The notes beneath the pieces were generated by a model that saw only the letters and a list, made by a program, of their open reading frames with translations, ran no database searches and had not been told where the DNA came from. Made by a program: the position numbers and the translations under genes. A stretch of 50,562 nucleotides of DNA from Dyella sp. ASV24 (GTDB taxonomy: Bacteria > Pseudomonadota > Gammaproteobacteria > Xanthomonadales > Rhodanobacteraceae), in the NCBI RefSeq assembly GCF_016428905.1, contig NZ_JAELTQ010000020.1, positions 1-50,562 on the forward strand. Direction: 5' to 3'. Below are positions 23,169 through 50,562 of this stretch, one piece after another; the first letter of the stretch is position 1; every line of letters begins with the position of its first letter.

Positions 23169-24245
23169 ATGAGGGAAGCAGGAAAGAGATCGGTTCGCCG
23201 CAAGGGTGGCTCCGTCACCATCGACGACGTGGCCGCGCTGGCCAAGGTATCCCCCATGACGGTGTCGCGCGTGGTCAACGGTCACACCAAAGTGCGTGAT
23301 GCCACCCGCGAACGCGTGATGGAGGCCGTCCGTGAACTAGGCTACATCCCCAACCTCGCGGCGAGCTCGCTGGCCGCCGCGCAGGATGCGCGCATCGCAC
23401 TGATCTACACCAACCCTTCCGCCGCTTATCTGCGCGAGCTGTTGCTCGGCGCGTTACGGGGCGCGGCGCGCACAGCGGCACAGCTAGTCATCGAGAACTG
23501 GGGCGACCTGGATGCCGGCGGCGACCGCAAAGCAGCGCGCGCGTTGGCCAGAAGCGTGACCGGTGTCATTCTGCCGCCGCCGCTGTGTGAATCGAAGGTG
23601 GTGATCGAGGAATTGGTCGAAGCGGGCGTGCCGGTAGTCGCCATTGCCGCAGGCAGCTTCAACCACGAGATATCCAGCGTTCGCATCGACGACTTTCTCG
23701 CTTCAAAGGAAGCGACCGAGCACCTCATCCGCCTGGGCCACACGCGCATCGCCTTCGTGAAGGGCCACCCCAACCAGACGGCCAGCGCACGTCGCCTCGA
23801 CGGTTACCAGGCCGCGCTCAATGAGGCTGGTATCGCGGTCGATCACACGATGGTGCAGCAGGGCTTCTTCACTTATCGCTCGGGACTCGACGCAGTGGAA
23901 AAACTGTTGTCGCTCAAGCACCCGCCCACGGCCATCTTTGCCAGTAACGACGACATGGCCTCCGCCGCTATTTCCGTCGCGCACCGCCACGGGCTCGGCG
24001 TGCCACGCGATATTTCCATCATTGGCTTCGACGATACGTCGGCGGCGACGACGGTGTGGCCGGAAATCAGTACCGTGCGGCAGCCCATCGCCAGCATGGC
24101 CGATACGGCCATCGACATCCTGCTGCGCACGATCCGCCGTAAGGACACGGAGACCAAAGTGGTGGTCGATCACGTGGTTGCCCACCAGCTGGTGCAGCGT
24201 GACTCCGTTGCGCCGCCGGTGGCCACGCGCAAAGCGCGCCACTGA
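23169..24245 (+). CDS. LacI/GalR-family transcriptional regulator
   Basis: A 358-residue regulator. The DNA-binding helix-turn-helix and hinge are at residues about 15-65 (VTIDDVAALAKVSPMTVSRVVNG...YIPNLAASSLA), preceded by a basic extension. The periplasmic-binding-protein-like effector domain follows, with typical ASNDDMASAAI and ISIIGFDDT. A sugar or related metabolite is the expected effector. It converges with the amidohydrolase gene and has no sugar genes beside it, so its target beyond itself is not evident. A candidate operator is at 23053-23066. Confidence 0.9.
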   Translation: MREAGKRSVRRKGGSVTIDDVAALAKVSPMTVSRVVNGHTKVRDATRERVMEAVRELGYIPNLAASSLAAAQDARIALIYTNPSAAYLRELLLGALRGAARTAAQLVIENWGDLDAGGDRKAARALARSVTGVILPPPLCESKVVIEELVEAGVPVVAIAAGSFNHEISSVRIDDFLASKEATEHLIRLGHTRIAFVKGHPNQTASARRLDGYQAALNEAGIAVDHTMVQQGFFTYRSGLDAVEKLLSLKHPPTAIFASNDDMASAAISVAHRHGLGVPRDISIIGFDDTSAATTVWPEISTVRQPIASMADTAIDILLRTIRRKDTETKVVVDHVVAHQLVQRDSVAPPVATRKARH

Positions 24246-24283: not shown

Positions 24284-26092
24284 TTATTCGGCGTGATCGA
24301 ACTCCGGCATCGCGTCGGATAGCTGCCCCTTGCGCCAGCCATCCGCGCCGGGGCGTTGGTACACGATCTTGCCGCCGACGATGGTGTAGAGCACCCGCGT
24401 ACGCAGGATGTCTTCGGCGGGCAAGGTCAGCAGGTCGCCGGAGAACACGTCGATATCCGCCAGCTTGCCCGGCGAAAGGGAGCCAAGTTCATGCTCCTGG
24501 AGTACGGCGTAGGCGTTGTTCCAGGTGTAGGACTGCAGTTCCTGCAAACGGGTCTTGGCTTGGGCAGGGTAGAACGTCTTGGTGCCGTGGCCATAGGCAC
24601 GGGTCACGCCGCAGTAGAAGTTGGGAATGGGGTTGGTGTCTTCGACCGGCGTGTCGGTACCGTCCAGCACGATAGTGCCGCTATCGATGAGCGTCTTCCA
24701 GACGTAAGCGCCTTCCTGCGCGCGCTTCTCGCCCAGGTGGGGCACGACCATCGGCGCATCCGAACAGGTGTGGATGGATTGCATCGAAGCGATGACGCCC
24801 AACTCCGCAAAGCGCGGAATGTCGGCGGGATCCAGATGCTGCGCGTGCTCGATACGCCAACGCAGCGCCGTCGCCGCCGGGTACTGCGTGAAGACGTTCT
24901 GGTAGAGATCCAGAAGTTCACGGTTGGCGCGATCACCAATGGCATGGATGGCCATCTGGAATCCGTCGCGCGCGGCGATCCGAGCCATCTTTGCAAGGTC
25001 GCTCATCGCCGTGACGTTTTTGCCCGTGATGCCGGGGGCGTCGTTGTACGGCGCCAGGAACCAGGCGCTGTGCGTACCCAACGCACCATCGGAAACGTCC
25101 TCACCCAGACCGAGTACGCTGAAATGGTGATCGGCATAGCCGGCAATGCGATAGTCGACGAGATGCTTATCGAGCTTGTCGACTGACTTCTCGTCGATGT
25201 ACACGAACAATCGCAACGGTTGGACCTTGGCGAACTGCTGCTTCATCCAGTCAACGGTCTCGAAATTTTCGCCCTGATCGACGAAGCTCGTAATGCCCTT
25301 GCTGATCTCGTTCTGCACGGCCAGTTGCAACACGTGTTCGCGGCGTGTGGCCCGTTCGGCGGCCGGTAACGCGGTCACGTAGCGGTCGTATGCGGCAAAC
25401 ACAGGATCGGCCGCGCTATCACGCAGCATGCCCATGGCATGGCCTTGCGCATCGCGCACGATGGTGCCGCCGGCAGGATCAGCGGTGGTGTCGGTGATGC
25501 CGGCGAGCTTGAGTGCCTGCGCATTAGCGTAGATACCGTGTCCGCTGGCGTGATTGAGCAGCACAGGGTTGTTGGGCGATATCGCGTCCAAGCTCGTGGG
25601 CAGCGGCAGGCCGTCCACGTTGGGTTGCGGCACCTTGTTCCACTTTGCCTGCTGCCAACCCTGGCCGACGATCCATTCGCCCGGTTTGGCCTTGGCCACG
25701 GCCGCCTTCACGATCGCAACGATCTCGTCCCAGTTGGCGGCCTTGCCCACATCTACTTGCATCAGCGCTTCGCCGGTATCCATCAGATGGCCGTGGCCTT
25801 CGATGAAGCCCGGCGTGACGAATGCACCATGCAGGTCGAGCACCTTGGTTTTTGCGCCCACGTAGTGCCGAATGGCGTCATCACTGCCAAGCGCGGCGAT
25901 GCGTCCATCGCGAACGGCCAGCGCCTGCGCATGCGGTTGCAGTGGATCGAGCGTGGCGATGGTCGCGTCAAGCAGCACCAGATCCGCCGGTTGGAGCGCT
26001 GGCGGAAAGCCGTGGATCGGGGCGTTGTCCGCCACACAGGTAGCAGAGAAAGCGAGTGCCATGCCGGGAATCAATAGTCGGAACGACTTCAT
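24284..26092 (-). CDS. secreted YtcJ-like amidohydrolase
   Basis: A 602-residue metal-dependent hydrolase of the amidohydrolase superfamily. The GGAGG site 7 nt before 26092 decides the start, and a signal peptide follows (SFRLLIPGMALAFSATCVA). The metal-binding pattern is FIEGHGH on the first strand, then MAIHAIGDRANRELLD, RIEHAQHLDP and a late LDGTDTPVED. Members act on amides, hydantoins or N-acyl amino acids, or are uncharacterised; the substrate cannot be read. Periplasmic location and closeness to the LysR/DgcN/beta-lactamase-like genes make a role in peptide or N-acyl amino acid breakdown plausible. Confidence 0.82.
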   Translation of the reverse strand: MKSFRLLIPGMALAFSATCVADNAPIHGFPPALQPADLVLLDATIATLDPLQPHAQALAVRDGRIAALGSDDAIRHYVGAKTKVLDLHGAFVTPGFIEGHGHLMDTGEALMQVDVGKAANWDEIVAIVKAAVAKAKPGEWIVGQGWQQAKWNKVPQPNVDGLPLPTSLDAISPNNPVLLNHASGHGIYANAQALKLAGITDTTADPAGGTIVRDAQGHAMGMLRDSAADPVFAAYDRYVTALPAAERATRREHVLQLAVQNEISKGITSFVDQGENFETVDWMKQQFAKVQPLRLFVYIDEKSVDKLDKHLVDYRIAGYADHHFSVLGLGEDVSDGALGTHSAWFLAPYNDAPGITGKNVTAMSDLAKMARIAARDGFQMAIHAIGDRANRELLDLYQNVFTQYPAATALRWRIEHAQHLDPADIPRFAELGVIASMQSIHTCSDAPMVVPHLGEKRAQEGAYVWKTLIDSGTIVLDGTDTPVEDTNPIPNFYCGVTRAYGHGTKTFYPAQAKTRLQELQSYTWNNAYAVLQEHELGSLSPGKLADIDVFSGDLLTLPAEDILRTRVLYTIVGGKIVYQRPGADGWRKGQLSDAMPEFDHAE

Positions 26093-26183
26093 CCAATCCT
26101 CCATTCGCCGTGCGAACGTTATTTGGTGAGATTACCGGTTACTGCACGCTATGAACGCCGTATCTACGACATTCGTGCCTTCT

Positions 26184-27086
26184 TCAAGGTTGCGCGAGCA
26201 TGAGCTGGGCGAGTTGCCGCACGATATCAAGGAATCGCTTCTGCACCTGGTTCAAGGGACTATCGGGCCGGTGCATGGCGTACAGCACGACTTCCAGATG
26301 CGGTTTCAGCGGTCGCATCTGCACGCTCTTAGGGCCGCCACAGCGCGCGGTGAAGGGATCGACCAGCGCCAGGCCTTCACCCTTGGCAACGAGGGAATGC
26401 GCCAATTGGTAGGTCTGCACCGCAACGTTGATCTTCGGCTCCGGCTCGATTTTGGAGAGGTGGCTTTGCAACATGCCGCCCAAGGCATCGCGCACGTTGA
26501 TGCCGATCATTGGTTGGTTGGCCAGCGCTCCAATCGGCAACGGTTGCCCTAGTTCCTCTTCGGGCCACCAGCCCGGCGGGGCGATCACCATGACCTGACC
26601 ACGGCACAGCACCCGTTGGCGCAGATTGTGGTGACCAGTGTCCTGCAGTGTGAGGCCAATATCGGTTTCAAGCAGCGTCAGCGACTCGCACATCGCCGCC
26701 GAATGCTGCGTGGACAATTCCGCCACCACGTCAGGAAAGTTCTCCCGCAGCAGCATCACCGCCGAAGCCAGCAGGGTCAGCGCCAGCGTCGGCGTGCAGG
26801 TGACCCGCAGCGGGCAATTGCCCGGCTGGCTCATGTTCTTGGTGAGGTGTTCCAGATCGTGCACGTCCTGCACGATCTTCTCGATGCGGTCACGCAGCAG
26901 CAGTGCCTGCTGCGTCGGCAACAGACGTCCCCGCACGCGACTGAACAAGGCGAAGCCAAGCCGGTCTTCGGCGTTCTGCAGCGCCTTGCTGGCCGCGGGC
27001 TGCGAGATGTCCAACAGCTTGGCCGCACCAGTGATGCTGCCCGTGGTCAACACGGCATGAAAGAGCTCGATATAGCGCAAACGCAT
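26184..27086 (-). CDS. LysR-type transcriptional regulator (DgcR-like by context)
   Basis: A 300-residue LysR regulator. The winged helix is at residues about 1-60 (MRLRYIELFHAVLTTGSITGAAKLLDISQPAASKAL), followed by a two-lobed effector domain. It is divergent from the DgcN-type gene across 350 bp, the standard position for a LysR regulator controlling its neighbour. Characterised D-glutamate loci (dgcN-dgcA) carry a LysR activator, DgcR; the same role is inferred here. Start at 27086 places the helix-turn-helix at the N-terminus; longer readings use a TTG start. Confidence 0.88.
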   Translation of the reverse strand: MRLRYIELFHAVLTTGSITGAAKLLDISQPAASKALQNAEDRLGFALFSRVRGRLLPTQQALLLRDRIEKIVQDVHDLEHLTKNMSQPGNCPLRVTCTPTLALTLLASAVMLLRENFPDVVAELSTQHSAAMCESLTLLETDIGLTLQDTGHHNLRQRVLCRGQVMVIAPPGWWPEEELGQPLPIGALANQPMIGINVRDALGGMLQSHLSKIEPEPKINVAVQTYQLAHSLVAKGEGLALVDPFTARCGGPKSVQMRPLKPHLEVVLYAMHRPDSPLNQVQKRFLDIVRQLAQLMLAQP

Positions 27087-27319
27087 GTAGCTTCCGCACC
27101 CCTCTCTGTGTCCCGCAATGTCGTCGATTGAACCCGGCGCGCCCTTGGGCGCTGATTGAATGGCCAACAGCGAGATGGCGTTTTCGCATCATCCGCGCTG
27201 TGCGCACGCCTTTCAGGATCTTTCGACACTCCCCTGTCCCCATACTCTCAAGCTTGCGGGTCTTGGCAAAGGTGCCATTTCTCACAGATGTGCAGCGATG
27301 CGTGTGTGGTGTGGCGACG

Positions 27320-27388
27320 ACCACAACCTTGAGTTATGCCACGTGTCTGTTTTTTCATTGGTGACCGACGGGCGCCGATGGTTATGCT
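27320..27388 (+). promoter_or_regulatory. conserved 69-bp upstream module of the DgcN operon
   Basis: This block matches an ungapped 69-bp block upstream of the TonB-dependent receptor (36322-36390, minus strand). Fixed elements are ACCAyAAC, TATGCC, TTTTCATTGGTG, CGATG and TATGCT at identical spacing; by my count 44 of 69 positions agree. TTGGTG and TATGCT, 19 bp apart, could act as -35 and -10, giving a leader of about 40 nt. The upstream part could bind the divergent LysR regulator. Confidence 0.65.
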
Positions 27389-27436
27389 GCCTGAATCGCC
27401 TGGTGCCGATCAGAAACAAGTGGGAGTCCGGAACGC

Positions 27437-28480
27437 ATGTCTGACCGCAATGAAGCGACCGGCATCCTCCGATGGGGGCCGCCTTATCTGCTGTATATGG
27501 GTAGCGAGGCCGATGACCTGGCCATCAAGACAGCCAGAGGGCTGGCTTACTGGCGACCGGAGTGGTGCATCGGACAGTTTCGGCGCAGCAACTGCCCACT
27601 GACACTCGGCCTGCCCGACATGAACCCGGCACAGGCCAAGGCCGCTGGTGCGGACACCATGGTGATTGGTATTGCCAACGTTGGCGGCATGATGGCGCCC
27701 GAAGCGGTCGGCGACATCATCGCTGCGCTGGATGCCGGCCTCAATGTGATCGCCGGCCTCCACCAGAAGCTACGCGACAACAAGGACATTGTCGCGGCAG
27801 CCCGCGCCAACGGCAGGGCCTTGTTCGATGCGCGCGATGCCAACCGCGCCATTCCCATCGGCAACGGTCGGCGACGCGCCGGGCGGCGACTGCTGACGGT
27901 AGGCACCGATTGCTCCATCGGCAAGATGTACACCACGCTGGCGATCGAACGCAGCATGCGTCGACGCGGCCTCACCGCTGACTTTCGTGCCACGGGCCAG
28001 ACCGGAATGTTTGTCGCGGGAGACGGCATCGCCGTCGATGCCGTCATCGCCGATTTCATCTCGGGCGCGGCTGAAATGCTCTCGCCCGCTCGCAACGATG
28101 GTGGATGGGATCTCATTGAGGGTCAGGGCTCGCTGTTCCATCCGTTGTACGCCGGGGTATCGCTAGGCCTGCTGCACGGCTCCCAGCCCGACGCGCTGGT
28201 GCTGTGCCATGAGCCGACGCGCAGCCATATGCGCGGACTCCCGGACTGTCCGCTCCCGGACCTCAAGCATTGCCTGGAGGCCAATCTAACGGCCGCTCGC
28301 CTGACCAACCCCGCGGTCAAGGCGGTGGGTGTCGCGCTCAACACGTCCGGCATTGCCGAACACGAAGCGCTTGCCGCGTGCCGGGAGATTGAGGACCGGC
28401 TGGGGCTGCCGTGCCAGGATCCGGTCACCATGGGCGTCGAGGCCATCGTGGATCATTTGTTGGCGAGTTGCGCGGACTAG
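27437..28480 (+). CDS. DUF1611 / DgcN-family protein (D-amino acid N-acyltransferase-like)
   Basis: A 347-residue protein with the two-part DUF1611 layout. An N-terminal Rossmann-like domain (about residues 1-140) is followed by a P-loop-like domain with GTDCSIGKMYT (156-166) and the family signature EGQGSLFHPLYAGV (228-241). In marine bacteria DgcN N-acetylates D-glutamate and the partner racemase DgcA converts the product; no DgcA (enolase-superfamily) gene is present here. It heads an operon with a secreted serine hydrolase and a D-amino-acid aldolase, which supports a D-amino acid role but leaves the substrate open. GGAG precedes the ATG. Confidence 0.75.
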   Translation: MSDRNEATGILRWGPPYLLYMGSEADDLAIKTARGLAYWRPEWCIGQFRRSNCPLTLGLPDMNPAQAKAAGADTMVIGIANVGGMMAPEAVGDIIAALDAGLNVIAGLHQKLRDNKDIVAAARANGRALFDARDANRAIPIGNGRRRAGRRLLTVGTDCSIGKMYTTLAIERSMRRRGLTADFRATGQTGMFVAGDGIAVDAVIADFISGAAEMLSPARNDGGWDLIEGQGSLFHPLYAGVSLGLLHGSQPDALVLCHEPTRSHMRGLPDCPLPDLKHCLEANLTAARLTNPAVKAVGVALNTSGIAEHEALAACREIEDRLGLPCQDPVTMGVEAIVDHLLASCAD

Positions 28481-28549
28481 GTGCCGCGGGGAAGTTCAGA
28501 CCGGCATCATCCATCCCGCTGGCACGATGGCACTCATAGGGGAGAACGC

Positions 28550-30103
28550 ATGCGCCGTTTCATCCGATCCATTTTCTGCGCGTCCGCGTTGCTGCTGCTC
28601 GGGAGCCAGGCGCATGCATCTGCACCTGGCGTGCCATCGCAAGCGGAGTACGACCGGCTGGTCGACGCCGTGGTGGCTCGCTATCACTTGCCGGGTATCG
28701 CCGTCGGGGTCATCGACGATGGCAAGGTGGTTTACACCCGCACCGAGGGAAAGCTTGCCTCAGGCAAGCCCATGGATGCGGATACCTTGTTCGGCATCGC
28801 CTCCAACAGCAAGGCGATGACTTCCACCGTGCTTGCGCGGCTGGTGGAGAGCGGCAAGTTGCGCTGGGATGATCCGGTCACCCAATACTTGCCGTCATTT
28901 CGTATGTTCGACCCGTGGGTCACTGCCAACATGCAGGTAGGTGATCTGCTGGTGCATCACAGCGGCCTGCCCGAAGGCGCCGGCGATCTGATGCTGTGGC
29001 CGACACCCAATCAGTTCACACCTGACGACGTCGTGGCCGGGCTGCGCTACCTCAAGCCGGCGTACAGCTTCCGAGCGGGCTACGCCTACGACAACACCTT
29101 GTACATCGTGGCCGGTCAGGTCGCCGCGGCCGCTGGCGGTGCGCCGTATCCCATGCTGCTGCGTCGAGAGGTGTTCCAACCCTTGGGCATGAACCGCTGC
29201 CAGATCGGTACGTGGAATCGCAATACCGTGGGCAACGTCGCCGATCCGTACGTTCTGCACGACGGCCGCTTCGTACCGATACGTACCGACGACCCCATCG
29301 TGCATCCCGCGACCATGGACGCTGCCGGCGGCGTGCGCTGCAGCCTCAACGACATGCTCACCTGGGCCAACAACTGGCTGGCACCAACTCAAGAACAACT
29401 GGCATGGCTGTCGCCAGGACAACGGAGCAAGGAATGGACCGCCTATACGCCCATGCCGATCTCGCCGCGACGCCACGCGTGGGATGGCACGCTTTTCTAC
29501 GGCTATGGCTACGGCTGGCGTATCGCCGATGTCGATGGGCAGATGACCGTATCGCATACCGGTACGCTATCGGGCATGTATTCCGCGATGACACTGCTGC
29601 CATTACGCCGGAGCGGTTTTGTGGTGCTGATCAACGCCGACGCTGAAGACGCGCGCAGCGTGTTGATCGAAGTGCTTACCAAGCATTTCACGGCGCCCGG
29701 CGCGGCACGCAGCGTGGCCAGCTATGCCGATGAGCTGGAACACGACAGCCAGCAACAGCGCATCTCTCACGTTCCCGATACGTCGTCCCGGAAGAATGCG
29801 ACGCCGGCAGAGCTCGCCGGCCAACTTGGCGTGTGGCGCGATCCGTGGTTCGGTGACGTGCGGCTTTGCGCACAAGGCGATACTGTGCGCTTTGCATCAT
29901 TGAAGTCGCCCCTGCTGGCGGGACAGGTCATGCGCGTCGGTGATCGTTACCTGGTGCATTGGGATCGCGACGAGATCGAAGCGTGGCTGCGCTTTCCAGA
30001 ACACTCCGACGGTACGCTGCGCATGGCCAAGGTCGATCCTGATGCCGACTTCAGTTCCGACTATGAAGATCTCGCCTTTACCCGCGAACATGCGTGCAAA
30101 TAA
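28550..30103 (+). CDS. secreted class C beta-lactamase-like serine hydrolase (S12 family)
   Basis: A 517-residue protein with a signal peptide (IRSIFCASALLLLGSQAHA) and a beta-lactamase/D-aminopeptidase fold. All three active-site motifs are intact: Ser85-x-x-Lys88 (SNSK), Tyr180-Asp-Asn182 (YDN) and His336-Thr-Gly338 (HTG, in place of KTG). A C-terminal beta domain (about residues 410-517) resembles the lipocalin-like extension of EstB/D-aminopeptidase relatives. Family members include D-aminopeptidases, esterases and carboxypeptidases. Operon partners point to hydrolysis of D-amino-acid peptides or amides in the periplasm. It starts 70 bp after the DgcN-type gene with a GGGGAG site. Confidence 0.82.
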   Translation: MRRFIRSIFCASALLLLGSQAHASAPGVPSQAEYDRLVDAVVARYHLPGIAVGVIDDGKVVYTRTEGKLASGKPMDADTLFGIASNSKAMTSTVLARLVESGKLRWDDPVTQYLPSFRMFDPWVTANMQVGDLLVHHSGLPEGAGDLMLWPTPNQFTPDDVVAGLRYLKPAYSFRAGYAYDNTLYIVAGQVAAAAGGAPYPMLLRREVFQPLGMNRCQIGTWNRNTVGNVADPYVLHDGRFVPIRTDDPIVHPATMDAAGGVRCSLNDMLTWANNWLAPTQEQLAWLSPGQRSKEWTAYTPMPISPRRHAWDGTLFYGYGYGWRIADVDGQMTVSHTGTLSGMYSAMTLLPLRRSGFVVLINADAEDARSVLIEVLTKHFTAPGAARSVASYADELEHDSQQQRISHVPDTSSRKNATPAELAGQLGVWRDPWFGDVRLCAQGDTVRFASLKSPLLAGQVMRVGDRYLVHWDRDEIEAWLRFPEHSDGTLRMAKVDPDADFSSDYEDLAFTREHACK

Positions 30104-30145
30104 GGAAGTAGCATCCGTGATGCAAACGAAACGCTGGAGAGTCGC

Positions 30146-31303
30146 ATGAATGCGCCGTTTGACGGCCTTGAGCTGGGCTACGATGTACCCGCACTGCCGG
30201 GCATGGATGAGGCGGAAATCCAGACGCCCTGCCTGATCCTTGATCTTGACGCGCTGGAGCGCAACGTCCGCAAGATGGGGGAGTACGCCCGCAAACATGG
30301 CATGCGCCATCGCAGCCACGGCAAAATGCACAAGTCGGTGGATGTGCAGAAGCTGCAGGAGCACCTGGGCGGCGCGGTCGGCGTGTGCTGCCAGAAGGTA
30401 TCCGAGGCGGAAGCGTTCGCGCGTGGTGGTATCCGGGACATCCTGGTCTCCAACGAGGTGCGTGATCCCGCCAAGATCGACCGGCTCGCCCGCCTGCCGA
30501 CCTGGGGCGCGCGGATCATCGTGTGCGTCGACGACTTGGCGAACGTCAGCGAGCTGTCCGCCGCTGCGCAGAAGCACGGCACCACGCTGGAATGCCTTGT
30601 CGAGATCGACTGCGGCCAAGGGCGCTGCGGCGTCGACACCCCTAGCGCCGCCACGGCGATCGCGCAGGCCATCGCTGCCGCACCAGCGCTGATATTTACG
30701 GGCATCCAGGCCTACCAGGGCAGCATGCAGCACCTGGAGAACTATGCGGACCGCAAAGCGAAACTTGACGAGGCCATCGTCCGGGTCAAGGCCGTGGTGG
30801 AGGATCTACGCACCGCCGGGCTCAAGCCCGAACTCATCTCGGGCGGCGGCACGGGCTCGTACTACTTCGAATCCGGCTCTGGTGTTTACAACGAGCTGCA
30901 GTGCGGCAGCTACGCCTTCATGGATGCGGACTACGGACGCATCCATGACAGGCACGGACACCGCATTGACCAGGGCGAATGGGATAACGCGCTCTTCATC
31001 CTGACCTCGGTGATGAGTCGCGCGAAACCCGGTCAGGCGGTCTGCGATGCCGGGCTCAAAGTGCAGTCAGTCGACAGCGGCCTTCCCGTGATTCATGGCC
31101 GCGACGATGTGAAGTACGTCAGCGCGTCGGACGAGCACGGCATCATCGAAGACACGCATGGTGTGTTGCGCATCAATGAAAAGCTGAAGCTCATCCCCGG
31201 ACACTGCGACCCGACGTGTAACCTGCACGATTGGTATGTCGGCGTGCGCAACGGCAAGGTCGAAGTGGTGTGGCCTATCTCCGCCCGCGGAAAAGCTTAT
31301 TGA
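30146..31303 (+). CDS. DSD1-family PLP enzyme, 3-hydroxy-D-aspartate/D-threonine aldolase-like
   Basis: A 385-residue fold-type III PLP enzyme with an alanine-racemase-like barrel. The PLP lysine is probably Lys60 in RSHGKMHKSVD. The C-terminal metal pair appears as His353 and Asp355 (PGHCDP), the His/Asp arrangement of D-threonine and 3-hydroxy-D-aspartate aldolases rather than the His/Cys of D-serine dehydratase. The strings KMHKSVD and GGAVGVCCQKVSEAE recall 3-hydroxy-D-aspartate aldolases, which release glycine and glyoxylate. It is cytoplasmic, the third gene of the operon, 42 bp after the hydrolase. The exact substrate is inference. Confidence 0.82.
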   Translation: MNAPFDGLELGYDVPALPGMDEAEIQTPCLILDLDALERNVRKMGEYARKHGMRHRSHGKMHKSVDVQKLQEHLGGAVGVCCQKVSEAEAFARGGIRDILVSNEVRDPAKIDRLARLPTWGARIIVCVDDLANVSELSAAAQKHGTTLECLVEIDCGQGRCGVDTPSAATAIAQAIAAAPALIFTGIQAYQGSMQHLENYADRKAKLDEAIVRVKAVVEDLRTAGLKPELISGGGTGSYYFESGSGVYNELQCGSYAFMDADYGRIHDRHGHRIDQGEWDNALFILTSVMSRAKPGQAVCDAGLKVQSVDSGLPVIHGRDDVKYVSASDEHGIIEDTHGVLRINEKLKLIPGHCDPTCNLHDWYVGVRNGKVEVVWPISARGKAY

Positions 31304-31355
31304 TGTGCGCGGCGTCCTAGCGGACAAGCATTGCCGCACGACAGAGCTTCCATCT

Positions 31356-32942
31356 TCATTCCATCAGAACACCAGCGTCACGCAGACGCCTACGCAGAGG
31401 GTCGAGCCGATCGCCATATCGCGCGCTACGCGCGGTGTTGCGTAACAAGGGTTGGCGCACCTGGGCGGCACTCGGCGCGCTACGCACCGCGCGTTGCGTC
31501 TTGTGAAAGTCGAGACAGGCGGGATCGAATGGCAGGTTGCAGAATTCCAGCAAGCGACGGATCACCGCCTCCGGCTCGGCCTGCAAGGCCTCGTATTCAA
31601 GATCGAACACTTGCGTTGGATATCGATCGAGCCACAACCGCGTCAGGCGCAGGAAGTCGATGCAGTAGTCAGCCATTTCGTCGAGGTCGGTACCGAAACC
31701 GTTCTTCTCACTAAAGAGTTGCCGGTAGCAGGCCAGACAGGTTTCCACCGGATCGCGCCGAACGATGACGACGCGTGCCGCGGGCAACATGGTCAGCGTG
31801 GAACCAACGAGGTACCAGTTGAGGAGATTTTTATCGGTGAACCGAGGCCTGGCTTCGCGCCAGCGCGCGGTCCGCGCGAGATACTCCTGACCCAGGCGAT
31901 GCCAATCCTGCGCGGTAGCGTCGGCTGTCCACAACGGGAACGCGGAGCCCCGCCGCTTGGTTTCCGCGTCGATCACCTGCGATAGGTCACTGATCTCGTT
32001 CGCGCCCGTTACCTCCGGATGCGAGGCTAGAATCTGCTCAACCAGGCTCGAGCCAGAACGCGGAATGCTGGTGATCAGAATGACTTCGCGGCCCAGCTTG
32101 TCATCCAGCGGTGGCGGCATTTCTTTCATCGCGGTCGCTGCGATGGCCTCCACGCGCCTGCGTTCGCCCGTAGCGTCCCATGGCGTCCGTTGACGCCTCG
32201 AGGTGTTGGCGGACTGGAAAGCATCAAACGCCCGCGCATAGTCGCCTTGATCTTCCATCGCCTTGGCGAGCGCGAAGCCCAGCAGCTCACGGTGCCGCGC
32301 CGGCAGGTCGCCGCGTGCCAAAGCGCGCTCCAGACAAGCCACGTCCGACGCATCGAAGCGCACGGTATTGAGATTCGACAGGCCGAACCATGCTTCGGCG
32401 TTGGCGGGCTCGCGCCGCACAATGTCCCTGAAGCCCGTCACTGCGGCATCAATGTCACCCAGGCTCGCTTGCGCCTTGGACAAGGACAGTCGCGCCGATA
32501 CATGCCCGGGATCCACCGCCAGCGCGCGTTGCAAGGCCGCCACAGCCTCCTCGGTATGGGCCTCCCTTACCAAGGCCTCGCCGAGGTTGAACCATGCTGG
32601 CGCCGACCCAGGCTGCAATTCGCAGGCATGCCGCAGGTGCATCAACGCCTTGTCGATATCGCCGCGCTCAAACAGCGCGATACCGAGGCAAACGTGCAGA
32701 TCGGAGTCATCAGGCCATATCGCCAGCACGCGTCGAAAGCAGTCGATAGCGCGCACGGCGTCACCGCGACGCTGCGCCACCATGCCAAGCATCCGCATCG
32801 CCGTCGGCTCATCGGGCGCCAGGGCCAACACGTTGAGCAAGGACCTTTCAGCGGCGTCGAAGGCGCGGCGGGCCCATTCCTCGCGTGCCCTTGCCAACAT
32901 CCGCTCGGCCATCGGTGGAAGCGTCGGTCGAGGTTCGCTCAT
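31356..32942 (-). CDS. tetratricopeptide-repeat sulfotransferase family protein
   Basis: A 528-residue two-domain protein. Residues about 15-250 are TPR units (for example AWFNLGEALVREAHTEEAVAALQRALAVDP). Residues about 285-510 form a sulfotransferase domain with the 5'-phosphosulfate loop SIPRSGSS (292-299) and the 3'-phosphate-binding VVIVRRDPVETCLACYRQLF (about 390-410). PAPS-dependent transfer is expected but the acceptor is unknown. It follows the TonB-dependent receptor gene across a strong terminator; a TATAGT at 32972-32977 on the minus strand may give it its own promoter. It converges with the aldolase gene. Confidence 0.82.
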   Translation of the reverse strand: MSEPRPTLPPMAERMLARAREEWARRAFDAAERSLLNVLALAPDEPTAMRMLGMVAQRRGDAVRAIDCFRRVLAIWPDDSDLHVCLGIALFERGDIDKALMHLRHACELQPGSAPAWFNLGEALVREAHTEEAVAALQRALAVDPGHVSARLSLSKAQASLGDIDAAVTGFRDIVRREPANAEAWFGLSNLNTVRFDASDVACLERALARGDLPARHRELLGFALAKAMEDQGDYARAFDAFQSANTSRRQRTPWDATGERRRVEAIAATAMKEMPPPLDDKLGREVILITSIPRSGSSLVEQILASHPEVTGANEISDLSQVIDAETKRRGSAFPLWTADATAQDWHRLGQEYLARTARWREARPRFTDKNLLNWYLVGSTLTMLPAARVVIVRRDPVETCLACYRQLFSEKNGFGTDLDEMADYCIDFLRLTRLWLDRYPTQVFDLEYEALQAEPEAVIRRLLEFCNLPFDPACLDFHKTQRAVRSAPSAAQVRQPLLRNTARSARYGDRLDPLRRRLRDAGVLME

Positions 32943-32993
32943 GTCGTCACCGCAAACGGTCGGATCAGCTGACTATACACAAGGCCCCACGAC

Positions 32994-33025
32994 AAAAAAA
33001 AAGAGCGCCGAGCAATGCCCGGCGC
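32994..33025 (-). terminator. rho-independent terminator of the TonB-dependent receptor gene
   Basis: GCGCCG / CGGCGC stem with additional inner pairs around an AAT loop, followed on the minus strand by an uninterrupted run of nine T residues. It lies directly after the receptor stop codon and before the sulfotransferase gene. Confidence 0.88.
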
Positions 33026-33047
33026 GCGGGGAGATGACGATGCGTCA

Positions 33048-36000
33048 TCAGAAGTCGTAGGCGACGGAGAACCTGATGTAGCGTGGCGCAGTCGCGTCCT
33101 GCACGCGGCCATAGTCCGGGTTCGGGCTGGACGTAGTGCCGTAGAAGTCGTTGTAGAACACCGGCGTCTGCTGGTTGAACAGATTGATGACCGCCACATT
33201 GAAGTCGAGCTTGTGATCTGACCAACTCGGCTTGTAATCGACGTTGAGGTTGACCTGATGAGTCCATGGCAGGCGGCCCAGCGAACCCGGCGGCACGGGC
33301 ACGCCACCGCACCAGTAGTAGGTGTGCGAGCCGTGAAGGGCGAGCTGATCCGGGCCGTAGCCACCACGACAGAGACGCGGCGTACCGGACGCCATGTAGA
33401 TGTTGGCGCCCACCGCCCAGTCCTTGGCGATCTGGTAGGCGCCGTAGAACTTGATCTGGTGCTTGCGATCATTGGGCAGGACGCCCGAGGAGTACTCCAT
33501 GCGCTCCGGGAAGTCCCACGCGGTGGTGAGTGATTCGTAGGAACCGCCCTGCTGCGAATAGGTGCTTACCGGGCCTTCGTCATTACCCCAGGTGCGGGAG
33601 AACATGTAGTCGAACTTGGCGAACCACTTGCCGTCCCATGCGTGTTCCAGCGACAGATCCAGCGAGTAGTAGCGACGCGTCGCCCCCTTGGGGAATGCCT
33701 GATCTTTGGCGGTCAGCGTCACCGGCACGAGCGCACCACTGGGCGATTGCATCAGCAGCTTGGCGGTTTCACCCGGATTGATCAGCACCAGGCTCTGCGC
33801 CCACTGACTGCAGCTGTCTGCCGTCATATAGGCATAGCCCTGCGCACGTCCCGCCGCACATTCGATCTGGATGTCATCGAAGTCGTCGATGATGCGATCC
33901 ATGCGCTGGTATGTGCCGGTAGCACCGAACACCCAGCTTGTTCCCAGCATCTCGAACTGCTGCTGCATGCCCAGCACGTAGTTGTCGGAGAACTCGGCCT
34001 TGATGTTCTGTGCCGTGGAAACACGCGGATCTTTGGCTTGGCCGTATTCGCTGTCGATCGATACGCCCGTCGATGGATTCTGCGGCAGCGGCGTGAAGCC
34101 GATCGGTGCGCCGGTGCTCGGATCGATCCCGGTGTACGTGCCGTACACGCCGGCGTTGGTGACTGGAGCGGCGATGGAAAGCGCCACCTGTTCCGGCAAT
34201 GCAAGGTAGTAGCGACCTGCGTTACCGAACACCTTCAACGAGGAATCGCCATGCACGTCCCAGCTGAAGCCAAGGCGCGGCGCCCATTGCGGCTTGGTCA
34301 ACCGGATATAGGGCACGCCGGATGCGTCGTAGTTAGTGAACTGGTCGCTGCGCAGGCCCAGGTTCAACAGCAGATTGGGAGTCACCTGCCAGTTGTCCAA
34401 CACGTACTGCGCACGTTGCGCGACCCGGACAGAAGCCACGCTGATATCGGTGTGCTGTTGCACGTAATAGCAGCGGACGACGCCGGTGGAATCAGGGTGG
34501 CACTGCGTCGACGGTGCCACATAGGGCGGTACATTGGGGCTCACACCAAAGACGGGCGAACCCGGGTCGCTTTGCCCGTAGATCCATTGATAACCCGGGC
34601 CCGGATCCACGGAACCGTCATTGATATCGCGCGAATTGATGTTGTCGATGCCGACCTGAAAGTCATGGTCGCCCAGCTTGTAGTCCAGGTTCAGACGATA
34701 GTTCGTCACCGACTCCTTGTGGTCGGGATCGGCAATCGAGGAGTTGATCTGCGAGTTCGAGATGCCGCCAGGCGGCGAAAATGCCGGATCCTGCTGCGAG
34801 TTACTGGCGATATGCGGCAGCATCGGGTCATAGCCGGGATACCCGGGCTGACCGGTGTAATACGTGCCGTGCATTTTGCCGACTGTCGCATTCAACGTCA
34901 GGTCGTCGGTGATGTACGAGGTGTAATTGGCCACCCACACCTTGAAGGTGGTGCGATTGATCTGGTCGAGGCTGTTGAAGTCGCCCTGCTTCAGGGTGTT
35001 GTAATCGAAGTTATAGATCGTCCCGTCGGTCTTGTGGGCGTTCTGCAGATAGGTCGCGCTCAGAACGTTGCTGTCGTTGATGTTCCAATTCAGCTTGGTA
35101 TAGAACTTGGGATCCTGCACTTTCCACGTTTCGGTGGTAGCGGTGCTGCTGAACTCCGACGTCGTCCGGTAGTTGGTATTGTCCTGCTCGGCGCCGATAA
35201 AGAAGAACAGCTTGTCCTTGATCAGCGGACCGCTGATGTAGGCGTCGTAGATGTTCTCACTGCTGCTGTTGTTGTTGCGGAAGACAGAGATATCGCCGGG
35301 CCGGTTGCCGACGTTCGTCACCAGCGGATTGGCGTAATAGAAATTATCGGGGTCGGCCCGCATGCTGCCCGGCTGCCACAGTGCACGCACACCGAAATGC
35401 CAGTCGTTGTCGCCGCTCTTGCCAATCTGGTTGATAACGCCGCCGATGGAGCGGCCGTATCTGGCGTCGTAGCCACTGGTGAAGGTCTGCTGCTGTTCGA
35501 TCGCGCCATACGGCAAGGAGATGCCGCCCTGGTTGTTGAGCAACTCGGTGGTGTTCATGCCATCGAGGTAGTAGGCGTTTTCCGCCGTCGACGCACCACC
35601 AAACACCAGATTCGGCGTGCCCAGCGGGCCGTTGCCCACCTCCGGCGAACCCAGGTTGACGCCCGGCGCCAGCAGCGCAATGTTCTCAGCGGTGCGCTGC
35701 AGAGGCAGTTGCTGCAACTGCTTGGCGGTGATCGTCGTCACCTGGTTGGTCGTGCTCACGTCGATGGGCGGCAAGCTGTTGCCGGTGACGCTGACCGTGC
35801 CGAGCGTCTTGGCGCCTGCTTCGGCGGAAGGCACCGCGAAATCCACCACCACCGAGCCAGCCGCCACCGGGCTCACGCCGCTGCGTGAGTCCACGACCTT
35901 GCCGCCCTGCAGGAGCGACACGGTATAGGTGCCGACCGGCAAGGTAACCGAGTACTTGCCGGACGCGCCCACGTCGATGCTGCGATTGAAACCCGAGCCA

Positions 36001-36179
36001 CCGGTGATCTGGATGGTTTCACCTGCAACGGCAGGAACGGTTCCGTAGATAGTGCCGTTCGTCGCCTGTGCCCAGGCAGTGCCGGTGAAGCCCAACGTGG
36101 CCGAACTGATGGCCAGTGCCAGCGCCTTGCGCCGGAGGCCCTTCTTTCGATGCAACGAACGTGAGGACGTTACCTTCAT
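33048..36179 (-). CDS. Oar-like TonB-dependent outer-membrane receptor
   Basis: A 1043-residue receptor. The GGGGAGAG site and signal peptide (ALAISSATLGFTGTAWA) fix the start at 36179. An N-terminal carboxypeptidase-regulatory-like beta domain (about residues 38-115) is followed by a plug domain (VTTITAKQLQQLPLQRTAE; DGMNTTELLNNQGG) and a large barrel with long loops, ending in the aromatic FSVAYDF. This architecture is the Oar group, linked in several bacteria to peptide or protease-product uptake. Upstream lies a 69-bp module shared with the DgcN operon, suggesting a joint substrate. Ligand unknown. A strong terminator follows. Confidence 0.9.
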   Translation of the reverse strand: MKVTSSRSLHRKKGLRRKALALAISSATLGFTGTAWAQATNGTIYGTVPAVAGETIQITGGSGFNRSIDVGASGKYSVTLPVGTYTVSLLQGGKVVDSRSGVSPVAAGSVVVDFAVPSAEAGAKTLGTVSVTGNSLPPIDVSTTNQVTTITAKQLQQLPLQRTAENIALLAPGVNLGSPEVGNGPLGTPNLVFGGASTAENAYYLDGMNTTELLNNQGGISLPYGAIEQQQTFTSGYDARYGRSIGGVINQIGKSGDNDWHFGVRALWQPGSMRADPDNFYYANPLVTNVGNRPGDISVFRNNNSSSENIYDAYISGPLIKDKLFFFIGAEQDNTNYRTTSEFSSTATTETWKVQDPKFYTKLNWNINDSNVLSATYLQNAHKTDGTIYNFDYNTLKQGDFNSLDQINRTTFKVWVANYTSYITDDLTLNATVGKMHGTYYTGQPGYPGYDPMLPHIASNSQQDPAFSPPGGISNSQINSSIADPDHKESVTNYRLNLDYKLGDHDFQVGIDNINSRDINDGSVDPGPGYQWIYGQSDPGSPVFGVSPNVPPYVAPSTQCHPDSTGVVRCYYVQQHTDISVASVRVAQRAQYVLDNWQVTPNLLLNLGLRSDQFTNYDASGVPYIRLTKPQWAPRLGFSWDVHGDSSLKVFGNAGRYYLALPEQVALSIAAPVTNAGVYGTYTGIDPSTGAPIGFTPLPQNPSTGVSIDSEYGQAKDPRVSTAQNIKAEFSDNYVLGMQQQFEMLGTSWVFGATGTYQRMDRIIDDFDDIQIECAAGRAQGYAYMTADSCSQWAQSLVLINPGETAKLLMQSPSGALVPVTLTAKDQAFPKGATRRYYSLDLSLEHAWDGKWFAKFDYMFSRTWGNDEGPVSTYSQQGGSYESLTTAWDFPERMEYSSGVLPNDRKHQIKFYGAYQIAKDWAVGANIYMASGTPRLCRGGYGPDQLALHGSHTYYWCGGVPVPPGSLGRLPWTHQVNLNVDYKPSWSDHKLDFNVAVINLFNQQTPVFYNDFYGTTSSPNPDYGRVQDATAPRYIRFSVAYDF

Positions 36180-36600
36180 GATCTGCTCTCCCCAGACAAT
36201 GAAACCCAAGTAGCGCTGCCTCGATGAAGTCATGGCGTATTGCTTCACCGTGTCGGCAGACACCCAACCCCTACGACCATGACCGCCGCGGCTCCCCAGC
36301 CACGGAACGGTATGTCTCCCGAGCATACTCATCGCCCTGCGGAAACCACCAATGAAAAGACCTGCATCCGGCATAGCCTGGAGTTATGGTTCTCGTTGTC
36401 GCTTAGGCGTCGAAATAGCCGTCCGAAACGAGCCTTGAAAGTGCAGCGATGTGCGGCAGACCTAGAAGAGGGCCGATCTACATGTTGGTAAACGCCATGT
36501 ACGATGCATGCTCATCGCCGATCGACGCGTACCCGTGATTGCGCATGGCGCGCACAGGCACGGAACCCGAGCAGTCCCGCCACGCTGTGCAGAGGGAAGC
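36180..36600. other. 421-bp divergent intergenic region, receptor / M61 peptidase
   Basis: No coding frame is supported. It contains the receptor's conserved upstream module (36322-36390, minus) and a receptor leader of about 135 nt. On the plus strand, TTGGTA near 36484 and CATGCT near 36506 resemble a looser version of the same promoter elements at shorter spacing (about 16 bp), ahead of the peptidase gene. Confidence 0.5.
36322..36390 (-). promoter_or_regulatory. conserved 69-bp upstream module of the TonB-dependent receptor
   Basis: Minus-strand partner of 27320-27388. In transcription order it shows ACCATAAC, 7 bp, TATGCC, 11 bp, TTTTCATTGGTG, 12 bp, CGATG, 2 bp, TATGCT, with every spacing equal to the DgcN copy. 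It points toward the receptor gene 143 bp away. Confidence 0.65.
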
Positions 36601-38499
36601 ATGAAACGACTGACACGATGGTTTGGCGTTGTGGCCCTGGCGATCTCCGCACCTTGCCTCGCCATGGCAGGCGACAACCTGTCGCCCGGCACCACGGCGT
36701 TGACTGTGCGCCTGCCCGATCCCAGCCAGAAACTGCTGTACGTGCACGAGAGGATGCCCGTCCAACCGGGTCCGTTGACGCTCTACTACCCGAAATGGAT
36801 TCCTGGCGATCACTCGCCGGATGGGCCGATCGAGCAGATCATGGGCCTGGTATTCACGGCGGGCGGCCAACGCATCGCCTGGCAACGCGATGAGCTGGAT
36901 CGGTTCGCCTTCCACCTCACGATACCGGCTGGCGTGCAGCAACTGGACATCGACTTCCAGTTTCCCGGAACGGAAAGGGTGACGCCGAATCTGATGGGCG
37001 TGTCCTGGGATCAAGTGGCACTGTACCCGGCCGGCTATGCAACCAAGACGCTGATCTATCAGCCAACCCTGGTCATTCCTGCCGATTGGCATTACGGCAG
37101 CGCGCTGGAAACAGCGACACGCGACGGCGGACGCATTGCCTTCAAACCGGTGCCATTCAACACGCTGGTCGATTCGCCGGTGATTGCCGGCCGATACTTT
37201 CGGCAGATCGACCTGACGTCAGCGGGATCAACGGTGCATCGGTACCTCGACATGGTGGGCGACAACGCGGCTGCACTTGATCTATCGGAGCCGCAGATCG
37301 CCGGCTTCCGCCGACTGATCGAACAGGCGCAGGCGCTGTTCCACTCCCACCATTACGACAGCTATCACCTGTTGCTGACGTTGAGCGATTACGTACCCGT
37401 CGGCGGCCTGGAGCACCACCAGTCGAGCGACGATCGTGCGCGCAGCGGCTCGAAGATGTTCGCTGACGGCGACCATTTCATGCTCGATGCTTCGTTACTT
37501 CCCCACGAGTACACCCATTCGTGGAACGGAAAATTCATGCGTCCAGCAGGTCTGTGGCAGCCCGACTTTGAACAACCCGAGCGCCCCGGCATGCTGTGGA
37601 TCTATGAAGGGCTCACGGTTTACCTGGGCGATGTACTGACCGCGCGCAGCGGTTTGTGGTCGGCGGATACATGGCGTCAGGTGTTGGCATACCGGGCCGG
37701 CGACATGGCGTATCGGCCGGGACGCGCGTGGCGGCCGCTGCTGGATACCAGCGTCGCCGTGGACTATTCGTCACCCACGGCGTGGGGCAACTGGCGACGC
37801 CAGAACGACTTCTACCGCGAGGGCGAGCTGTTGTGGCTTGCTGTCGATATGAAGATTCGCGAACTCAGCCACGGCCAGCGCTCCATCGACGATTTCGCGC
37901 AGAAGTTCTTCGATGTCGACGACGGCAGCTTCGTCACCCACACCTACACCTTCGATGACGTTGTCGCAGCGCTCGACAAGGTGCAGCCGTCTGATTGGAC
38001 AAGCTTTCTCCGCCAGTGGACCGAAGGCGTAGGCGAGCAGGTGCCCCTGCTCTCCGGCATCGAAGCCAGCGGTTGGCGACTGGCTTATACCGATCAGCCG
38101 TCCGCATATCAGCACGCCATCGAAAACATCGGGCAAGGCGAACTGGAAATCAAAGGCATCAACGCCATGGCCTCGATCGGCCTGTTCCTCAAAGACGAAG
38201 GCGAAGTCATTGACGTGTTGTGGGATGGGCCCGCCTTCAAAGCCGGCCTTGCGCCGGGCATGAAACTGACCTCCATCAACGACCGTCACTTCAGCGCATC
38301 CGTATTGCACGAAGAACTCGCACAGACACAACAGAGCAAGAAGCCGCTGCAACTACGCGTGCAGAACGACGGCGAAAGCGAACTCCATGTGGTCCATGAC
38401 GACGGCGGCCCGAAGTACCCCAACCTCGTCCGCACGCCGAGCAAGACCGATGTGCTGCAGCAGATACTCGCACCGAGGCCCACCAGCGGCGTTCCTTGA
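36601..38499 (+). CDS. M61-family metallopeptidase (glycyl aminopeptidase-like) with PDZ domain
   Basis: A 632-residue secreted peptidase. The signal peptide (TRWFGVVALAISAPCLAMA) is followed by an M61 beta domain, the family motif GGLEHHQSS (about 268-276), the zinc site HEYTH (His302, His306) with Glu336 in WIYEGLT, and a PDZ domain (about residues 510-610). M61 enzymes remove N-terminal glycine or alanine from peptides. It is divergent from the Oar-like receptor and probably trims peptides in the periplasm, with glycine as a product relevant to the nearby aldolase. Start at 36601 is the ATG that exposes the signal peptide. Confidence 0.88.
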   Translation: MKRLTRWFGVVALAISAPCLAMAGDNLSPGTTALTVRLPDPSQKLLYVHERMPVQPGPLTLYYPKWIPGDHSPDGPIEQIMGLVFTAGGQRIAWQRDELDRFAFHLTIPAGVQQLDIDFQFPGTERVTPNLMGVSWDQVALYPAGYATKTLIYQPTLVIPADWHYGSALETATRDGGRIAFKPVPFNTLVDSPVIAGRYFRQIDLTSAGSTVHRYLDMVGDNAAALDLSEPQIAGFRRLIEQAQALFHSHHYDSYHLLLTLSDYVPVGGLEHHQSSDDRARSGSKMFADGDHFMLDASLLPHEYTHSWNGKFMRPAGLWQPDFEQPERPGMLWIYEGLTVYLGDVLTARSGLWSADTWRQVLAYRAGDMAYRPGRAWRPLLDTSVAVDYSSPTAWGNWRRQNDFYREGELLWLAVDMKIRELSHGQRSIDDFAQKFFDVDDGSFVTHTYTFDDVVAALDKVQPSDWTSFLRQWTEGVGEQVPLLSGIEASGWRLAYTDQPSAYQHAIENIGQGELEIKGINAMASIGLFLKDEGEVIDVLWDGPAFKAGLAPGMKLTSINDRHFSASVLHEELAQTQQSKKPLQLRVQNDGESELHVVHDDGGPKYPNLVRTPSKTDVLQQILAPRPTSGVP

Positions 38500-44064: not shown

Positions 44065-44127
44065 CGACCGCCATGCGGCCGCGGTCGGTGCTCGGAATCC
44101 TCATGTACAAAAGTACACTCCGGTTCC
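44065..44127. repeat. palindromic element in the ampE / MFS-PlsC convergent gap
   Basis: Two stacked palindromes: CGACCGC / GCGGTCG (44065-44071, 44081-44087), then an imperfect hairpin with outer GGAA / TTCC and inner TGTAC-AAAA-GTACA. The second part looks like an intergenic element that I have seen in other proteobacterial genomes (from memory). A further 6-bp hairpin (TCGCTA / TAGCGA) lies at 44159-44178. No U-tract marks a clear terminator. Confidence 0.6.
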
Positions 44128-44233
44128 TGCGCGCCGCCCACACCCACCTGACGGCCGCTCGCTACGTTTTGTTAGCGACTCTAAGCGGTAATCATCAACG
44201 CACGCCCCATCGCGCGTGCGCGCTTCCCGAAGC

Positions 44234-50450: not shown

Positions 50451-50562
50451 GGGAAGCGTAGCGTTTGCTTTCCCTTGCCCCAGTGGTGGGAAAGCGTAGC
50501 GCTCCTTTTCCCTCGCCTCGGCGGTAGGAAAGCGTAGCGTCCTCTCTCCCTAGCCTCAGCGA
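50451..50562. repeat. 37-38 bp tandem repeat array, continuing past the window
   Basis: Three head-to-tail units start at 50451, 50488 and 50526. The shared core is GGRAAGCGTAGCG (with one extra A in units 2 and 3), then a pyrimidine-rich stretch ending TCCC, then GCCYCRGYG. In units 1 and 2, GGGAA(A) and TTTCCC can pair, so they form hairpins. There are no unique spacers. The third unit ends with the window. Confidence 0.85.

Follow-up and report, generated by a model that had tools for sequence, protein, structure and literature searches.

We analyzed a 50,562-nucleotide stretch of the genome of Dyella sp. ASV24 (contig NZ_JAELTQ010000020.1, positions 1 to 50,562; hereafter the window), in which a 69-bp module stands upstream of two convergent operons: at 27320-27388 on the plus strand before dgcN, and at 36322-36390 on the minus strand before the gene of an Oar-like TonB-dependent receptor. 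Judging from the sequence, both copies are very probably promoters under the control of the LysR-type protein encoded at 26184-27086 (minus strand), which would switch on the dgcN and receptor operons together. The module had been described in an earlier note on this DNA, whose coordinates, block order and spacing all proved exact; its hand count of 44 identical positions out of 69, without gaps, was also confirmed. The same note placed receptor and catabolic genes in one regulon and named the LysR protein as its candidate regulator. Both proposals find support in our analysis, the first in the shared two-site motif, a coherent gene set and the co-occurrence of motif and LysR gene, and the second in this co-occurrence.

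The module is built of a dyad (CAyAACC-N3-rGyTATG), a 13-bp spacer, the block TTTTCATTGG, a 21-bp spacer and TAtGCT, an arrangement that resembles promoter modules of LysR-type regulons. In front of the dgcN operon, the dyad CACAACCTTGAGTTATG occupies 27322-27338, TTTTCATTGG 27352-27361, an adjoining hexamer TTGGTG 27358-27363, and TATGCT, the proposed -10 element, 27383-27388 (all on the plus strand), with a predicted transcription start near 27395. The corresponding parts of the receptor module lie on the minus strand at 36372-36388 (dyad), 36349-36358 (TTTTCATTGG) and 36322-36327 (TATGCT), with a predicted start near 36315. If TATGCT is the -10 element, the dyad is centered at about -65, with TTTTCATTGG at roughly -43 to -34. 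Such a placement would agree with the rule given in an excerpt of PMC8407307, according to which LysR-type regulators usually have a recognition site near -65 and an activation site near -35/-10. Over 102 distinct sites, the inverted repeat (consensus CATAACC-N3-GGTTATG) shows a mean of 5.33 of 7 matching pairs, compared to 0.45-2.75 in 23 other, shifted registers. Some proteins of this type read T-N10-A to T-N13-A boxes, as stated in an excerpt of PMC12609908, and a T-N11-A box is present in the receptor site; the dgcN site reads C-N11-A.

The earlier note had read TTGGTG-N19-TATGCT as a possible promoter with an unusually long spacer, and the upstream half of the module as a possible activator site. 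The second part of this reading stands, with the upstream half as a putative LysR-type recognition dyad; the first can be refined: TTGGTG with a 19-bp spacer makes a poor -35 element, and TTTTCATTGG is better read as an activation site overlapping it than as a plain -35. A sigma-70 scan found no consensus promoter in the region, compared to 2.7 expected in shuffled sequences, as would be expected if an activator is needed. We propose that one LysR dimer would anchor on the dyad while the second dimer of a tetramer would touch TTTTCATTGG beside the poor -35 and the TATGCT -10, and that the regulator, once bound to a co-inducer, would help RNA polymerase. Both modules would in this way jointly activate the convergent operons, that is, dgcN-serine hydrolase-bhcC on one side and the receptor gene, probably with the gene of a tetratricopeptide repeat (TPR)-sulfotransferase, on the other. 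It is unlikely that the LysR protein binds the modules mainly to repress, the sites then serving negative control of both operons, because a poor -35 spaced 19 bp from the -10, together with conservation at the position of an activation site, points to a promoter dependent on assistance.

The module recurs in related genomes with its geometry intact. With up to three mismatches, the full pattern was found at 41 sites in 28 of 233 genomes of the family, and a relaxed core with up to two mismatches in 48 of them; of 398 genomes sampled from the order, 32 had a 40-bp core. In both samples, reversed control patterns gave no hit. A matrix built from 71 distinct sites is invariant or nearly so at CA-AAC, G-TATG, TTTTCATTGG and TA--CT, the proposed -10 included, while the sequence between these blocks drifts. 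Both window modules match the pattern; the receptor copy scores 90.0 bits and the dgcN copy, which is itself among the 71 sites, 87.8 bits. Spacing was examined in 80 loci that had been fetched for their DgcN relative alone, the motif having played no part in their choice. When the gap between dyad and TTTTCATTGG was left free from 0 to 40 bp and a total of up to three mismatches was accepted, it measured 13 bp in 52 of 53 pairs, and a TANNNT lay 20 or 21 bp beyond the pair in all but two. The earlier note had named a loss of spacing in orthologous loci as a result that would refute its reading; it did not occur, and the pairs include loci whose LysR protein is only 46-50% identical to that of the window (L023, L024 and L026). 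At the near end, in G056 (LysR 99% identical), spacers have diverged and the blocks remain fixed.

The LysR protein contains both an N-terminal helix-turn-helix domain (PF00126, 60.0 bits, cut-off 26.6) and a C-terminal substrate-binding domain (PF03466, 92.7 bits, cut-off 28), and its orthologues (E<=1e-70) were found in 46 of the 233 family genomes. Motif and LysR gene occur together in 45 genomes and are both absent from 184; the motif alone was seen in three and LysR alone in one (Fisher 2.6e-43). Among these exceptions, a LysR piece of 78% identity lies at a contig end beside the site in G006, and the LysR match of G165 is partial (residues 1-190). Among the 129 relaxed-core sites of the family genomes, 111 are on the same contig as the LysR gene and within 50 kb of it, at a median distance of 2.3 kb; of the remainder, two lie at a greater distance, 12 are on different contigs and four belong to genomes without a LysR match. 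Sites distant from the LysR gene, such as G154:C2:467281, G202:C22:618708, and G094:C2:402462 and 402577, are possible outlying regulon members, and that of G154 has a second dgcN-like gene at a distance of about 5 kb. The 26 genomes of the order sample with a LysR match (E<=1e-60) all fall within the 32 that have the core motif. Two of the other six, G257 and G270, have two-mismatch sites (locus L147 holds no cluster gene, and L148 a decarboxylase-like gene of 32% and a LysR gene of 34% identity).

Several observations weigh against the explanation proposed here. The remaining four order genomes (G387, G461, G489 and G505), which belong outside the family, have sites and no LysR match at E<=1e-60, which argues against a simple one-regulator picture; the site precedes dgcN in three of them and lies in a region with gltS in G489, and only a LysR of 31% identity is found near the site of G461 (L142). 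Within the family, G005 and G217 carry sites before receptor genes without any LysR match, their assemblies being split into about 220 and 520 contigs, and L027 has a LysR gene of 47% identity and dgcN but no site. In addition, no nearby TTTTCATTGG (up to two mismatches) accompanies 11 of the 51 exact dyads of the 80 loci, and the T of T-N11-A is replaced by C in the dgcN site of the window and likewise in 44 of the 71 matrix sites. The genomes compared are also related to one another and not independent, so that the p-values are too small. G005, G217 and the four order genomes would fit a different transcription factor that travels with the cluster and reads the module, with the LysR gene as a passenger. 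We consider this quite unlikely, because the geometry of dyad and activation site is of LysR type and because the LysR gene changes its place in the cluster, lying either divergent from dgcN or in front of a receptor gene, yet the sites stay near it. The LacI gene of the window (23169-24245) was found in only one (L003) of the loci L001-L032 and is not favored as the regulator.

As for chance, the identity of 44 of 69 positions is unremarkable alone and barely exceeds that of unrelated pairs: pairs of unrelated 69-mers of the window that do not overlap agree at up to 43 positions, two palindromic stretches that overlap themselves at 44, and a tandem repeat with overlapping copies at 50451/50489 at 53. 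What goes beyond chance is the grouping of the matches into fixed blocks. The 26 fixed positions of the upstream part (up to three mismatches) gave two sites in the window and none in 100 dinucleotide-preserving shuffles. Throughout the 5.6-Mb genome, three patterns, each searched with up to three mismatches (a full version with 37 fixed positions and two cores, one shortened and one relaxed), returned just the two module sites, and the reversed control returned none. The block was not seen before many unrelated genes, an outcome which the earlier note had regarded as refuting its reading: this genome has two sites, and 86 of 105 distinct sites precede genes of the cluster. Identity between the two copies drops to background outside the 69 bp. 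When the lysR-dgcN gap was aligned with that of three relatives of the same genus, 44 of 69 positions were invariant in the module versus 119 of 281 outside it (Fisher p 0.002), where the flanks hold further conserved blocks. A dispersed repeat, a duplication, a general promoter or chance resemblance is therefore rejected as exceedingly improbable, in view of the two copies in the genome with their unlike flanks, the restricted gene set, the zero counts in shuffles and in the reversed controls of 233 and 398 genomes, and the blocks that stay fixed while spacers diverge even in G056. A second conserved block of the lysR-dgcN gap, at 27210-27260 (around ATCTTTCGAC and CCTCTCAAGCTTG), is perhaps the lysR promoter.

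The genes behind the motif were counted over the 105 distinct sites (up to two mismatches) of the fetched loci and the window, with gene families assigned by Pfam and NCBIfam; a site was taken to precede a gene within 450 bp upstream, and identical sites were counted once because several genomes are duplicated among the records. The 86 assigned sites precede seven kinds of gene: dgcN (32), the Oar-like receptor (27), a second TonB receptor (12), gamma-glutamyltranspeptidase (11) and, more rarely, an amidohydrolase (2), a permease (1) and a decarboxylase-like gene (1). The other 19 were not assigned. In many relatives, dgcA and gltS come next after dgcN. In relatives, dgcN(-dgcA-gltS), gamma-glutamyltranspeptidase and TonB receptors are linked by the motif, and from this gene set the regulon most likely functions in taking up and degrading D-glutamate or gamma-D-glutamyl peptides; from the same genes, our guess is that one of these compounds is also the signal. 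The association with the motif is looser for dgcN than for LysR. Among the family genomes, 57 have DgcN, 46 of them with the motif, and two motif genomes are without it. The 11 DgcN genomes that lack the motif carry only paralogues of 47-54% identity, and the idea that the motif merely follows any dgcN was rejected on these grounds. One point against the proposed function is that the window's own genome has no close DgcA (the best match, on another contig, is 32% identical) and no GltS at E<=1e-30, which implies that the pathway is incomplete or different there.

A further pattern concerns two positions of the dyad. Positions 5 and 15 read C/T in 57 of the 102 distinct sites, T/C in 27, T/T in 16 and A/T in one, whereas C at both positions occurs only once (Fisher 2e-12, too small a value given the related sequences). 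C at position 5 is found in 25 of 32 dgcN sites versus 2 of 27 Oar-like receptor sites (Fisher 4e-8, too small for the same reason). It seems that one half-site may be weak, the weak side being set by the target. A more specific and rather doubtful proposal is a gamma-D-glutamyl scavenging regulon (for muropeptides or poly-gamma-D-glutamate), in which the Oar-like receptor would import, gamma-glutamyltranspeptidase and serine hydrolases would cut, and DgcN, with DgcA where present, would turn over D-glutamate. Its regulator would sense D-glutamate or N-acetyl-D-glutamate and read two polarized versions of the dyad with the weaker half-site on different sides, mostly CACAAC..GTTATG (dgcN, transpeptidase and second receptor) and CATAAC..GyTATG (Oar-like receptor).

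LysR-type control is a well-known kind of system. The modules share with LysR-type promoters such as those studied for BenM and CatM, both of them relatives of the window's LysR protein with solved structures, the adjoining divergent LysR gene, a dyad of T-N11-A size, a second conserved block over the presumed -35 region and fixed spacing; they differ in that conservation is as high in TTTTCATTGG as in the dyad, and in the frequent C noted above. The best NCBIfam match of the LysR protein is NF008239 (PRK11013), which we take to be the E. coli LysR, activator of lysA. With 128.8 bits, far below the cut-off of 288, it was rejected as a member; a diaminopimelate-decarboxylase-like gene in the cluster of some relatives is a further likeness to that system. 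The DgcN-DgcA pathway of D-glutamate use is mentioned in excerpts of PMC12363236 and PMC10845958. The window resembles this pathway in a DgcN above the family cut-off and in the dgcA and gltS genes of many relatives, and departs from it in a cluster without dgcA. No description of a regulator of this pathway in other bacteria, or of the present motif or regulon, was found in the open-access literature searched; the original DgcN-DgcA paper was outside the search, so a regulator described there could be missed. For Rhodanobacteraceae and their relatives, our results offer a regulon of D-glutamate use that can be put to the test, with both its site and a candidate gene for its regulator specified. 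They also hint at the class of substrate of one group of Oar-like TonB receptors, proteins whose sequence makes it difficult to predict the ligand.

The plus-strand operon begins with dgcN (27437-28480), a member of the D-glutamate N-acetyltransferase family (NF041892, 515.6 bits, cut-off 480). It is followed by a beta-lactamase-fold serine hydrolase (28481-30103, PF00144), with an uncertain start, the alignment to most relatives setting in at about residue 8-23, and by a BhcC-like 3-hydroxy-D-aspartate aldolase (30146-31303; NF045642, 742.5 bits, cut-off 690). On the minus strand, the Oar-like receptor gene (33048-36179; PF25183 and PF07715 above cut-off) is followed by that of the TPR-sulfotransferase (31356-32942; PF13469 and TPR families), which stands beside the receptor in several relatives; a strong terminator-like hairpin with nine pairs and a T-rich tail lies between the two genes (33005-33025, minus strand). 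For an amidohydrolase (24284-26104, minus strand, PF07969), a site is present in the relatives L005 and L006; in the window, the matrix scan gave none above 12 bits. The segment that separates the promoter of the receptor gene from the ATG (36180-36321, minus strand) is well conserved in four same-genus sequences and unlike in the other nine of 13 aligned, and is a possible regulatory leader; a known RNA was rejected, as there was no Rfam match at gathering scores. Divergent from the receptor is an M61 peptidase gene (36508-38499, plus strand); several loci have a relative of it close to the receptor. Elsewhere in the window, 44103-44177 on the plus strand matches the Xanthomonas small RNA sX9 with 82 bits.
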